From Acidimicrobiales bacterium (GTDB lineage Bacteria; Actinomycetota; Acidimicrobiia; Acidimicrobiales; GCA-2861595), in NCBI GenBank assembly GCA_035540975.1, contig DATLFN010000016.1, forward strand, positions 1 through 60,199: 60,199 nucleotides of DNA, in the 5' to 3' direction. Below the pieces are notes generated by a model that was given only the letters and a program-made list of their open reading frames with translations, was not told where the DNA came from and made no database searches. Positions within the stretch are counted from its first letter, which is position 1. Each line of letters opens with the position of its first letter. Positions 44,008 to 54,547 of this stretch are shown piece by piece. The position numbers and the translations under genes were made by a program.

Positions 44008-44080
44008 TGGCGGGTAGTTCAACTGGCAGAACGCCGGACTTTGGATCCGGAGGTCGCAGGTTCGATCCCTGCCCCGCCAA
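44008..44080 (+). tRNA. tRNA-Gln (anticodon TTG)
   Basis: A full cloverleaf can be drawn: acceptor TGGCGGG with CCCGCCA, D-arm starting TAGTTCAACTGG, anticodon stem CCGGA/TCCGG with loop CTTTGGA (anticodon TTG), T-arm GCAGG-TTCGATC-CCTGC, and discriminator A. The weak U1-A72 first pair is typical of tRNA-Gln. CCA is not encoded. The tRNA-Gln/glmU order is common in actinobacteria. Confidence 0.95.
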
Positions 44081-44105
44081 CGGGCCGTCGCGGTAGAAAG
44101 GAACC

Positions 44106-45212
44106 ATGAACCGTCCGCTCTCCGCCGTCGTGCTGGCCGCCGGGGAGGGCACCCGCATGAAGTCGTCGAGGCCCAAGCCGGTGCACCTCCTCTGCGGGAG
44201 GCCCATGGTCCTGCACGTGATCGACTCCCTCGGCGCCGTCCCCGTCGACCGGGCCGTGGTGGTCGTCGGGCACGGCGCCGAGCGGGTCACCAAGGCGCTG
44301 CTCGAGGAGGCGCCGGCCCGCCTCCGCATCGACTTCGTGGAGCAGCGGGTGCAGCGGGGGACGGGCGACGCCGCGTCGGTGGCGCTCACCGCCTTCCCCG
44401 ACGACGATGCGGACGACGGCGAGATCGTCGTCCTGCCCGGCGACACGCCGCTGCTGCGGCCGTCGACGGTGGCCGACCTGCTCGCCCGCCACCGCGAGAA
44501 GAACGCGGCGGCCACCCTGCTCACCACCCGCATGGCCGACCCCACCGGTTACGGGCGCGTCGTGAGGGACAAGAACGACCGGGTCGCCCGCATCGTCGAG
44601 GAGGCCGACGCCACCCCCGAGGAACGGGCAATCGACGAGGTCAACACGTCGATCTACTGCTTCCGCCGCAGCGTGCTGGCGCCCGCCCTCCGGCGGCTGA
44701 GCCCCGAGAACGCCCAGGGCGAGTACTACCTGACCGACGTGATCGAGGTGCTGCACGACGCCGGCTACCCGGTGTTCTCCCTGCTCGCCGGCGACCCGCT
44801 GGAGGCGGCCGGCGTCAACGACCGGGCCCAGCTGGCCGTGGCGGAGGCCGAGCTGCGCAACCGGACCAACCGCATGTGGCTGGAGCGGGGCGTCACCATG
44901 CTCGACCCGGCTCGCACGTACATCGACGCCACCGTCGAGCTGGGCACCGACGTCACCCTCTTCCCGGGCACCGTGCTCCAGGGCCGGACGGTCGTGGCCG
45001 CCGGGGCCCAGCTGGGCCCGGACTGCCGGCTGGTGGACTGCGCCGTGGCCGAGGGCGCGGTGGTGGAGCACACCGTCGGCCGCCAGGCCGAGATCGGGGC
45101 GGACGCCCGGGTCGGCCCGTTCGCGTCGCTGGCGCCCGGGTCCCGGGTCGAGCCGGGGACGGTCACCGGGCCGTTCTTCTCGGCCGTCCCGCACGTGCAG
45201 GAGCGCCCGTGA
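44106..45212 (+). CDS. glmU: GlmU-type UDP-GlcNAc pyrophosphorylase with truncated left-handed helix, 368 aa
   Basis: The N-terminal uridylyltransferase domain is complete: AVVLAAGEGTRMKSSRPKPVHLLCGRPM, GHGAERVTKAL, VQRGTGDAASVAL, VVLPGDTPLLRP, GYGRVVRD and VNTSIYCF. After the linker (NDRAQLAVAEAELRNRTN) a short hexapeptide-repeat helix begins (MLDPARTYIDATVELGTDVTLFPGTVLQG), but the protein ends at FFSAVPHVQERP. Bifunctional GlmU is ~450-490 residues; the acetyltransferase catalytic His/Asn region and C-terminal arm are missing. The frame runs directly into prs (GTGA overlap), so this is not an assembly break. Acetylation of GlcN-1-P must occur elsewhere or not at this protein. Confidence 0.9.
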   Translation: MNRPLSAVVLAAGEGTRMKSSRPKPVHLLCGRPMVLHVIDSLGAVPVDRAVVVVGHGAERVTKALLEEAPARLRIDFVEQRVQRGTGDAASVALTAFPDDDADDGEIVVLPGDTPLLRPSTVADLLARHREKNAAATLLTTRMADPTGYGRVVRDKNDRVARIVEEADATPEERAIDEVNTSIYCFRRSVLAPALRRLSPENAQGEYYLTDVIEVLHDAGYPVFSLLAGDPLEAAGVNDRAQLAVAEAELRNRTNRMWLERGVTMLDPARTYIDATVELGTDVTLFPGTVLQGRTVVAAGAQLGPDCRLVDCAVAEGAVVEHTVGRQAEIGADARVGPFASLAPGSRVEPGTVTGPFFSAVPHVQERP

Positions 45213-46180
45213 CGACGCTCGAGGTCGTCCCCACCAAGCGGCTCGAGCTCTACTCGGGGCGGGCCCACCGGTCCCTGGCCGAGGAGATCGCCGCCCACCT
45301 CGGCGTGCGCCTGGGCGAGCCGAACCTGCGGCAGTTCCCGAACGGCGAGATCCACTGCCGGTTCAACGAGTCGGTGCGGGGCGCCGACGTGTTCATCATC
45401 CAGACCCACTCGGGCCCGGTGAACGACTCGATCATGGAGCAGTGCATCATGATCGACGCCGCCAAGCGGGCGTCGGCCAAGCGGGTCACCGCAGTCTGCC
45501 CCTACTACGGGTACTCCCGCCAGGACCGCAAGGCCGAGGGCCGCGAGCCGATCACCGCCAAGCTCGTCTCCGATCTCCTGCAGGCGGCGGGCGCCAACCG
45601 GGTGGTGAGCGTCGACCTCCACTCGGGGCAGATCCAGGGATTCTTCGACGGGCCCGTCGACCACCTCACGGCCATGCCCGTGCAGGTGGAGTACCTGCTC
45701 GGCCACGATCCCGAGGGCATGGTGATCGTGGCGCCCGACGCCGGCCGGGTGAAGGTGGCGGAGAAGTTCGCCCAGCGCCTGCGCGCCGACCTGGCCATCG
45801 TCCACAAGAAGCGGTCCTCCGGGGTGGTGGAGGCGCGCGAGGTCATCGGCGACGTGGCCGGGCGGCGGTGCGTCCTCATCGACGACATGATCGACACGGC
45901 CGGCACCATCGTGGCGGCCGCCGAGATCCTCACCAGCCGGGGCGCCGGCGAGGTGTGGGCCATGGCCACCCACGGGGTCCTCTCCGACCCCGCCGTCGAC
46001 CGCCTGAAGAACTCGCCCATCGCCCGGGTGGTGGTCACCAACACCCTCCCGGTGCCCCCCGAGAAGCAGATCGACAAGCTGGAGGTGCTCTCGGTCGCCG
46101 GGATCATCGCCGACGCCCTCGACGCCGTGTTCGAGGATGCCTCCGTGTCCGACATCTTCGGCGGCGACAACCAGTCGTGA
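45209..46180 (+). CDS. prs: Ribose-phosphate pyrophosphokinase, 323 aa
   Basis: Makes PRPP from ribose-5-phosphate and ATP. Motifs: LRQFPNGEIHCRFNESVRGADVFIIQT, CPYYGYSRQDRKAEGREPI (flexible ATP loop), VSVDLHSGQIQGFFDGPVDHL, VIVAPDAGRVKVAEKFA and the PRPP-binding CVLIDDMIDTAGTI. Normal class I length. GTG start coupled to glmU; glmU-prs is the conserved order. Confidence 0.96.
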   Translation: MTTLEVVPTKRLELYSGRAHRSLAEEIAAHLGVRLGEPNLRQFPNGEIHCRFNESVRGADVFIIQTHSGPVNDSIMEQCIMIDAAKRASAKRVTAVCPYYGYSRQDRKAEGREPITAKLVSDLLQAAGANRVVSVDLHSGQIQGFFDGPVDHLTAMPVQVEYLLGHDPEGMVIVAPDAGRVKVAEKFAQRLRADLAIVHKKRSSGVVEAREVIGDVAGRRCVLIDDMIDTAGTIVAAAEILTSRGAGEVWAMATHGVLSDPAVDRLKNSPIARVVVTNTLPVPPEKQIDKLEVLSVAGIIADALDAVFEDASVSDIFGGDNQS

Positions 46181-52158: not shown

Positions 52159-53598
52159 GTGAACCGGCGGGTCGTGGTCGGCGGGCTCGGCCCGGCCGGC
52201 CCCGAGCTGCTCACCGCGGCCACGCTGGAGGCGGCCGGGCGGGCGCCTCGCACGTTCCTGCGCACCGCCCGCCACCCGGCCGCCGCCGCCTTCCCGTCCG
52301 CCGTCGCGTTCGACGACGTGTACGAGCGGTCGGCGACGCTGGACGAGGTGTACGCCGGCATCGTGGACGCCCTCGTCGAGGCGGCCGGCGAGGAGGGCGA
52401 GGTCCTGTACCTCGTCCCCGGGTCGCCGTCGGTGGCCGAGCGCACGGTCGAGCTGCTGCGGGACGACGACCGGGTGTCGGTGGTGGTGCTGCCCGCCCTG
52501 TCGTTCGTCGACCTGGCGTGGGACCGCCTGGGCGTCGACCCGGTGGCGGCCGGTGCCCGGCTGGTGGACGGCCGCCGCTTCGCCTCGGAGGCGGCCGGGG
52601 AGCGGGGCCCGCTGCTGGTCGCCCAGTGCGACTCGGCGCTCGTCCTCTCCGACATCAAGCTGGCGGTGGACGACCCGCCGCCGTCGCTCACCGTGCTCCA
52701 GCGCCTCGGCCTGCCCGACGAGCGGGTCCGGGAGGTGGCTTGGCACGACCTCGACCGGGAGGTCGAGGCCGACCACCTCACCTCCCTGTGGATCCCGTTG
52801 CTGGCCGCCCCCGTGGGCCGGGAGCTGGTCGCCTTCGCCGAGCTGGTCCGCACGCTGCGCCAGCGCTGCCCGTGGGACCGCGAGCAGACGCACGCCAGCC
52901 TCACCCGCCACCTGCTGGAGGAGGCGTACGAGACGGTCGAGGCCATCGAGGCGCTGGGCCGCACGGACGGGCCCGAAGGCATGGCCCACCTGGAGGAGGA
53001 GCTGGGCGACCTTTTGTTCCAGGTCTGCTTCCACGCCACGCTGGCCGCCGAGGAGGGCCACTTCACGCTGGCCGACGTCGCCCGGGGCATCTCCGACAAG
53101 CTGGTCCACCGCCACCCGCACGTGTTCGGCGCCGTAGAGGCCGGCACGGCCGCCGAGGTCATGGCCAACTGGGACCGCATCAAGACCGAGGAGAAGGGCC
53201 GCTCCAGCATCATGGAGGGGATCCCGTCGGCCCTCCCGTCGCTCCTCCACGCCGCCAAGGTCCAGCGCCGCGCCGCCTCCGCCGGCTTCGACTGGGAGTC
53301 GGTCGAGGGCGCCTACCCCAAGGTGGCCGAGGAGCTGGAGGAGCTGCGGGCGGAGCCGTCGGAGGAGGAGCTGGGCGACCTGCTCTTCGCGGTCGTGAAC
53401 GTCGCCCGCCACCTCGGGCTCGACCCCGAGGCCGCCCTGCGGGGCGCCACCGTCAAGTTCCGGGACCGCTTCCGTGCCGTGGAGGCGTTGGCCGGGGACC
53501 GGGGCCTGGACCTGGCCGCCCTCGACCTCGACGGCCTCGACGCCCTCTGGGACGAGGTGAAGGCGGTCGCAGGGCCGACGGCGGGGCGGCCCGGCTGA
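52159..53598 (+). CDS. mazG: MazG nucleotide pyrophosphohydrolase with N-terminal TP-methylase-like domain, 479 aa
   Basis: Residues ~1-215 resemble a tetrapyrrole/corrin methylase fold (VVVGGLGPAGPELLTAATL, LVPGSPSVAERTVELL), the YabN-type fusion. Two MazG modules follow: RQRCPWDREQTHASLTRHLLEEAYETVEAIE with EELGDLLFQVCFHA, then KVAEELEELRAEPSEEELGDLLFAVVNVARHL, each with the EExx..ExxD metal motif. MazG hydrolyses non-canonical NTPs. GTG start. The 67-base leader contains the palindrome GCCGGGGCCCCGGC (52132-52145), similar to the core of the tatD repeat. Confidence 0.93.
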   Translation: MNRRVVVGGLGPAGPELLTAATLEAAGRAPRTFLRTARHPAAAAFPSAVAFDDVYERSATLDEVYAGIVDALVEAAGEEGEVLYLVPGSPSVAERTVELLRDDDRVSVVVLPALSFVDLAWDRLGVDPVAAGARLVDGRRFASEAAGERGPLLVAQCDSALVLSDIKLAVDDPPPSLTVLQRLGLPDERVREVAWHDLDREVEADHLTSLWIPLLAAPVGRELVAFAELVRTLRQRCPWDREQTHASLTRHLLEEAYETVEAIEALGRTDGPEGMAHLEEELGDLLFQVCFHATLAAEEGHFTLADVARGISDKLVHRHPHVFGAVEAGTAAEVMANWDRIKTEEKGRSSIMEGIPSALPSLLHAAKVQRRAASAGFDWESVEGAYPKVAEELEELRAEPSEEELGDLLFAVVNVARHLGLDPEAALRGATVKFRDRFRAVEALAGDRGLDLAALDLDGLDALWDEVKAVAGPTAGRPG

Positions 53599-53611
53599 GG
53601 CACGCCGTTCC

Positions 53612-53650
53612 GGCGGCAGGATCGGGCGCACAGCGGCCCTTCTCGCCGCC
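53612..53650 (+). repeat. Repeat B, copy 2 (long-loop hairpin)
   Basis: GGCGGC (53612-53617) pairs with GCCGCC (53645-53650) around a loop containing GGATCGGGCGC and GGCCCTTCTC, matching the layout of 28355-28402. It sits just after mazG, at the convergent end with the methyltransferase gene, a terminator-like position. Confidence 0.5.
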
Positions 53651-53698
53651 AGACGCGTCCGGCGGCCCGCCCGCCCGGGCCCCGGCGGGCGAACCCGG

Positions 53699-54547
53699 TC
53701 ACGACGGCGGGCGGGCGGCGGTGACGAGCCAGGCCGACGACGCGAACTCGACGCCTCCGGGCCCCTCGGCGGCGGCGAGCGCAGCCCGCACCGATGCGAA
53801 CGCCCGCTCCCGGTCGGCCGGCTCGAGGTCCTGGGTGAGTCCCTTCACGATGCCCATGGTCCGCACGAAGCCCCACGCGTCGTCGGCGTCGTCGCCCAGC
53901 CACACCGGCTCGTCCACCGGCTCGAGCTCGACGGCGCCGAACCCCGCCGCGCCCAGGACGGCGCGCACGTGGTCCTCACGCGCCAGGCCGAACGGCCCCG
54001 GGGCGTCGGCCGGCGGCTCGGGGAGCGCCCGGCCCAGGGCCAGCGCGTCGCGGATGGCGGTGACCCACTGGTTGCGCCCGAGGTCGCGCCACGCCAGGAC
54101 GGCCAGCCGCCCGCCGGGGCGCAGGGCCCGCCCGATGTTGGCGAAGGCGGCCACCGGGTCGGCGAAGAACATGGCGCCGAAGCTGCTGATCGCGGCGTCG
54201 AAGGCGCCGTCGGCGAACGGGTGGACCTGCACGTCGGCCTGCTCGAACGACACGTTGGCGAGCCCCTCGGCCGCCGCCCGCCGCCGGGCCTCCTCGAGCA
54301 TCTGCGACGACAGGTCCACGCCGAGCACCGGCCCCGGCGCGGCGACGCGGGCGGCGTCGCGCGTCGACCGGCCCGTGCCGCAGCCGACGTCGAGCACCGC
54401 ATCGCCGGAGGCGACGAGGCCGGCGCCGGTGAGCCGGCCGTCGTGGCGGCGACCGGCGGCCTCGTAGCGGTCGGCCTGCGCCGTCCAGCGCTCGCCCTCC
54501 TCGCCGTCCCACGCCCTGGCCATGTCGACGTTGGCGATCGTCCTCAT
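53699..54547 (-). CDS. Class I SAM-dependent methyltransferase, 282 aa
   Basis: UbiE/Coq5-like fold: DAVLDVGCGTGRSTRDAARVA (motif I), VLGVDLSSQMLEEARRRAA, NVSFEQADVQVHPFADGAFDAAISSFGAMFFADP and ALRPGGRLAVLAWRDLGRNQW. The C-terminal half has VEPVWLGDDADDAWGFVRTMGIV-like elements seen in small-molecule methyltransferases. It is divergent from the PadR gene, and both share a 62-base regulatory gap with a palindrome, so PadR control is likely. Confidence 0.85.
   Translation of the reverse strand: MRTIANVDMARAWDGEEGERWTAQADRYEAAGRRHDGRLTGAGLVASGDAVLDVGCGTGRSTRDAARVAAPGPVLGVDLSSQMLEEARRRAAAEGLANVSFEQADVQVHPFADGAFDAAISSFGAMFFADPVAAFANIGRALRPGGRLAVLAWRDLGRNQWVTAIRDALALGRALPEPPADAPGPFGLAREDHVRAVLGAAGFGAVELEPVDEPVWLGDDADDAWGFVRTMGIVKGLTQDLEPADRERAFASVRAALAAAEGPGGVEFASSAWLVTAARPPS

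Follow-up and report, generated by a model that had tools for sequence, protein, structure and literature searches.

To our knowledge, bifunctional GlmU is regarded as near universal in bacteria. Both of its activities are antibacterial targets. In the eukaryotic hexosamine route (GNA1, phosphoacetylglucosamine mutase and UAP1), acetylation and uridylylation are carried by separate proteins, and GNA1 acetylates GlcN-6-P before the mutase step. The archaeal bifunctional sugar-1-P nucleotidylyltransferase/acetyltransferases (TIGR03992) keep a hexapeptide acetyltransferase. In Mycobacterium tuberculosis the uridyltransferase and acetyltransferase activities are each independently essential, and the engineered protein GlmU-N (residues 1-352) is active as a uridyltransferase, with acetyltransferase activity absent (PMC4619583).

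Here we describe a short GlmU encoded on a contig of an Acidimicrobiales bacterium (DATLFN010000016.1, of which 60,199 nucleotides were analysed, hereafter the window). It resembles the bifunctional enzymes of M. tuberculosis and E. coli (profiles TIGR01173 and PRK14352) in its uridyltransferase domain, linker helix, beta-helix start and glmU-prs gene order, but it ends about 90-120 residues earlier and has neither the acetyltransferase site nor the C-terminal arm. It is cut at nearly the same place as M. tuberculosis GlmU-N and the truncated E. coli crystal forms (1fwy and 1fxj). However, those are laboratory constructs, of which the M. tuberculosis one has been shown to be a uridyltransferase only, whereas the short GlmU is a natural, order-wide form with a conserved ending of its own. 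The order would resemble eukaryotes in placing acetylation and uridylylation on separate proteins, but in place of AGM1 and UAP1 it uses a bacterial GlmM and a uridyltransferase of the GlmU type. The short GlmU has a nucleotidyltransferase domain related to that of the archaeal enzymes but not their hexapeptide acetyltransferase, and its TIGR03992 score (117.7 bits) is below the cut-off of 292.1.

The literature searched consisted mostly of papers available without subscription. In it we found no account of GlmU in Acidimicrobiales and no described natural loss of the GlmU acetyltransferase half. A natural loss, across a whole order, of one half of an essential bifunctional enzyme, together with a named candidate for its replacement, thus appears to be new here, as we found no description of it.

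A GlmU that ends before its acetyltransferase site

In NCBIfam profile searches, TIGR01173 aligned to the short GlmU (Table 1) only at positions 2-344 of 452, with a score of 361.3 bits that falls below the curated cut-off of 366.85, and PRK14352 aligned at positions 5-355 of 488. Pfam matched an NTP transferase domain and one hexapeptide stretch. The protein reaches no further than the counterpart of TIGR01173 position 344 and lacks the His, Tyr, Asn and Lys of the GlcN-1-P acetyltransferase site. These alignments agree with the initial annotation, which had described a full uridyltransferase domain and the start of the helix as kept and the acetyltransferase site as gone. That annotation had also judged the protein to stop about 90-120 residues early at residue 368, a figure that fits the lengths of class relatives with full-length GlmU (460-491 aa), in which the PHL.Y, NYDG and KH.T acetyltransferase blocks are kept. 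It is close to certain that the acetyltransferase half has been lost from this GlmU.

Table 1. Features of the glmU region, in window coordinates
Feature	Position	Strand	Basis or remark
tRNA-Gln (ttg), just upstream of glmU	44008..44081	+	context only
short glmU, 368 aa, predicted monofunctional N-acetylglucosamine-1-phosphate uridyltransferase	44106..45212	+	translation, profile matches, AlphaFold model
uridyltransferase (NTP transferase) domain and linker helix, residues 1-260	44106..44885	+	Pfam, alignment, model
first turns of the left-handed beta-helix, kept, residues 263-352	44892..45161	+	Pfam, model, structural match
order-typical ending VTGPFFSAVPHVQERP (elsewhere xTGPFYTA...), in place of the acetyltransferase half	45162..45209	+	alignment of relatives
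prs (ribose-phosphate pyrophosphokinase)	45209..46180	+	GTG start overlaps glmU stop by four bases, fixes glmU end

Genes of the window, named by sequence, include metG-tatD-ksgA-ispE-like, tRNA-Gln, glmU, prs, ribosomal L25/Ctc-like, pth and mfd. The glmU stop codon TGA (45210-45212) and the prs start codon GTG (45209-45211) share the bases GTGA. As prs begins inside the glmU stop codon, there is no space for the missing piece of GlmU. Among 28 loci of relatives, 27 have the prs start at -15 to +89 bases relative to the glmU stop (the remaining one, L059, has no usable prs match), so there is no space for the lost domain in these genomes either. The overlap had been read earlier as the mark of a real gene end; this reading is borne out by the bases themselves and by the prs adjacency common to relatives.

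The retained part appears competent for nucleotidyl transfer. Residues R17, K24, Q80, G85-T86, D113 and N238 of the uridyltransferase site are invariant in 17 short GlmUs. With a mean pLDDT of 89.0, the AlphaFold model superposes on M. tuberculosis GlmU over 362 residues (Z score 44.4, 2.5 A), with 43% identity in the structural match. The nucleotide-binding loop (44346-44376, residues 81-90) reads QRGTGDA where GlmU usually has QLGTGHA. Since full-length class relatives carry RGTGDA too, the changed loop is older than the domain loss, and we discarded a link between the two.

The only acetyltransferase-site position that the short protein reaches is that of E. coli Arg333, which we take, with this numbering, to be a residue of that site; it is unconserved (LAPGS versus LRPG). 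For the short GlmU still to acetylate, the retained helix turns and the conserved ending would have to act, as they could in principle, through an unusual site or a partner. We found no positive evidence for this, all known acetyltransferase residues past Arg333 are missing and M. tuberculosis GlmU-N has no such activity (PMC4619583), all of which makes it exceedingly improbable. Taken together, the domain evidence, the order-wide conservation described below and the behaviour of M. tuberculosis GlmU-N (PMC4619583) argue that the short GlmU is very probably a monofunctional uridyltransferase, and that acetylation has to come from elsewhere. The initial annotation had likewise called for another enzyme or route.

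Spread of the short form and history of the loss

Relatives of the short GlmU were present in 302 of the 397 Acidimicrobiales genomes (one per species) that made up our order-wide set, and most of their open frames measured about 365-425 aa. When read to their stop codons, the GlmU relatives of the order were 357-372 aa long and shared an ending of the type VGPFAxLxPGsxVpxGxxTGPFYTA. We searched the same set with the acetyltransferase domain from the full-length GlmU of a class relative, and found no match to this domain in 396 of the 397 genomes. The sole match was weak (5e-13, 44% identity) and came from a genome that is 88% complete, whereas the same query matched all nine full-length-GlmU genomes at 1e-36 to 1e-79. 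Our search of the bacterium's own genome found no GlmU C-terminal domain elsewhere.

Because many independent assemblies show frames of 357-372 aa, the short GlmU is not the product of a frameshift in one of them, and the recurring short frame with its adjacent prs rules out assembly error more generally. The loss first proposed for this genome therefore holds there, but not as a peculiarity of a single genome, being a fixed trait across the order.

A tree of the first 345 GlmU residues grouped all of the 51 short forms into a single clade (support 98/92), sister to eight full-length GlmUs of the class (support 98/90), with Firmicutes and another actinobacterium falling outside. This topology points to a single ancient loss. 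On these sequences, the simplest reading is that the acetyltransferase half was lost once, before the order spread.

At a threshold of 1e-40, 95 of the 397 genomes had no match to the short GlmU, and several of them (for example, G037, G038 and G058) carry L208, the acetyltransferase discussed below. These genomes may have another, or a strongly divergent, UDP-GlcNAc pyrophosphorylase.

Other steps of the pathway

Of 40 genomes sampled from the order, 37 had a GlmM that scored above its profile cut-off. GlmS matched in 33 of the 40, as a long form in 19 and an ordinary form in 14; the other seven had no match at 1e-60. We infer that UDP-GlcNAc is still made via GlmS, GlmM and GlmU. One alternative dispenses with de novo acetylation and has salvaged GlcNAc or recycled wall sugars feed the uridyltransferase. 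Salvage can indeed supply UDP-GlcNAc through the GlmU uridyltransferase alone, and host GlcNAc sustains Capnocytophaga canimorsus (PMC4619583). However, the frequency of GlmM and GlmS among the sampled genomes, and the occurrence of the short GlmU in hundreds of largely environmental species, make this highly unlikely for the order.

In the bacterium's own genome, a divergent 1133-aa form (G000:C58, locus L196, core 52767-54467) was the sole GlmS match at our threshold; it adjoins glmM and scores 238.7 bits against PRK00331 (cut-off 381). About 150 residues are inserted in the early part of its glutaminase domain, and it carries a C-terminal extension of about 300 residues, of which the last 240 or so match no Pfam or PDB sequence.

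A separate hexapeptide GlcN-1-P acetyltransferase had been suggested at the outset. We sought one among the hexapeptide proteins of the own genome and found no stand-alone enzyme of the GlmU type; a protein of the GNAT fold, described below, makes a better candidate. By sequence, these proteins are DapD-like, polysaccharide-type acetyltransferases or sugar nucleotidyltransferases. An 830-aa open frame (G000:C124, locus L002) combines a nucleotidyltransferase with hexapeptide repeats and a phosphomannomutase-like part.

The GlcNAc-phosphate might instead be supplied by an enzyme of another fold, or by a GNAT outside PF00583. Our survey of the own genome covered PF00583 and hexapeptide proteins, which leaves room for such an enzyme, and the unusual GlmS of this genome also speaks for it. 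Yet the short GlmU co-occurs with an ordinary GlmS in, for example, G033, G029, G032 and G008, so that the extension is no general answer, and we rejected it as the acetyltransferase of the order. A source of this kind is possible but, in our judgement, unlikely.

A GNAT that accompanies the short GlmU

PF00583 was detected at 18 places, in 17 proteins, in the own genome. In a sample of 25 genomes, each from a different genus of the order, six of the 17 GNATs were broadly conserved: RimI, RimJ, MshD, L205, L207 and L208. The last is a 143-aa GNAT encoded outside the window (G000:C85:4481-4909) that scores 51.7 bits against PF00583 (cut-off 20.7).

Four of the six were tested in both halves of a contrast panel made up of nine full-length-GlmU and nine short-GlmU genomes, and only L208 separated the two groups. 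Eight of the nine short-GlmU genomes carried it, at 46-62% identity and 1e-38 to 1e-48; the nine with full-length GlmU did not, their matches being no better than 6e-8. The short-GlmU genome that lacks it (G407) was also missing RimI in the same search and is thus probably incomplete. Class-wide, by counts from the match table, 146 of 151 genomes of the order carry L208, as do 21 of the 244 class genomes outside it; these 21 represent two or three other families. Because the loss appears to be one event, however, the presence and absence of L208 across the order amount to about one independent observation.

The acetylation step could alternatively have been taken on by a GNAT of longer standing in the class, either the PAT/ArsN1-like L207, the murJ-linked L205 or a protein of the MshD/RimJ type. 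Along with RimI, these are conserved over most of the 25-genome sample, and L205 lies in a cell-wall neighbourhood, adjoining DUF6049 and murJ. On the other hand, L205, L207 and RimI are equally present alongside full-length GlmU and so do not track the loss; as replacements they were set aside on this ground, as was L212, and MshD and RimJ have established functions of their own. We therefore regard this alternative as rather improbable. In the own genome, locus L281 (G000:C3) encodes a GNAT whose first half is degenerate; it sits next to DUF6049-like and murJ genes, and its conservation extends over the order and the class.

Among the GNATs surveyed, L208 is the best candidate for the replacement acetyltransferase, and from its sequence and distribution we give it only slightly less than an even chance. 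In many genomes L208 adjoins citrate synthase, and in others NUDIX genes; amino-sugar genes are not among its neighbours. Relatives with 57-61% identity occur on plasmid records of Streptomyces and Actinomyces. The GlmU of these two genera is normally full length.

Resemblance of L208 to GNA1 and a proposed route

In a PDB profile search with L208, 1z4e ranked first and Trypanosoma GNA1 (3fb3/3i3g) second, with other solved eukaryotic GNA1s lower, among many GNATs. The T. brucei protein (TbGNA1, 3i3g) was also the second-best PDB relative by sequence. Conversely, TbGNA1 as a query picked L208 as the best of the 17 GNATs in the own genome, at 26.2 bits versus 21.5 for the next. The yeast and Arabidopsis GNA1 queries did not pick it, which argues that L208 is not a clear GNA1 orthologue.

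In GNA1, a Glu-Asp pair binds the sugar hydroxyls and a Tyr lies near the thiolate (PMC3413214). In the TbGNA1 alignment these residues correspond to E78, D79 and Y126 of L208, which are invariant in 16 orthologues. The phosphate-binding Lys136 of GNA1 (C. elegans numbering) aligns with a Thr, and the loop of L208 is three residues longer. Arginines 116, 119 and 140 of L208 are invariant, and Arg140, which is beyond the printed alignment, may match Arg164 of GNA1 (C. elegans numbering), which also binds the phosphate. By sequence, L208 is a GNAT that shares the Glu-Asp and Tyr positions with GNA1, yet it is a distant relative that resembles the Trypanosoma enzyme only weakly.

We propose a single loss of the acetyltransferase half of GlmU, no later than the common ancestor of the order, and that this loss was fixed because another acetyl-CoA-dependent enzyme makes an N-acetylated glucosamine phosphate. 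L208 would be the most likely such enzyme, and we infer for it one of two substrates: GlcN-6-P, acetylated before the mutase as by GNA1, or GlcN-1-P, acetylated after it. The short GlmU would then catalyse UTP + GlcNAc-1-P -> UDP-GlcNAc + PPi. For this explanation as a whole (a single loss, a monofunctional GlmU and L208 as the most likely replacement), we estimate a probability of about 0.5. More tentative, and somewhat below even odds, is the view that the order rebuilt UDP-GlcNAc synthesis in the eukaryotic style, through one loss of the acetyltransferase half of GlmU and the acetylation of glucosamine phosphate by a separate GNAT, with a monofunctional GlmU left behind.

An order of hundreds of species without one half of GlmU indicates that the two activities are separable in largely environmental bacteria. 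The loss points to an essential enzyme that is still unassigned, and L208 offers a concrete candidate for the missing step. The automatic label "bifunctional GlmU" is wrong for the short forms of Acidimicrobiales.

As for the order of acetylation and the mutase step, the GlmM motif GGEQSGH is kept in all 30 loci read. GlmM is thus canonical, which leans slightly toward acetylation of GlcN-1-P after the mutase.
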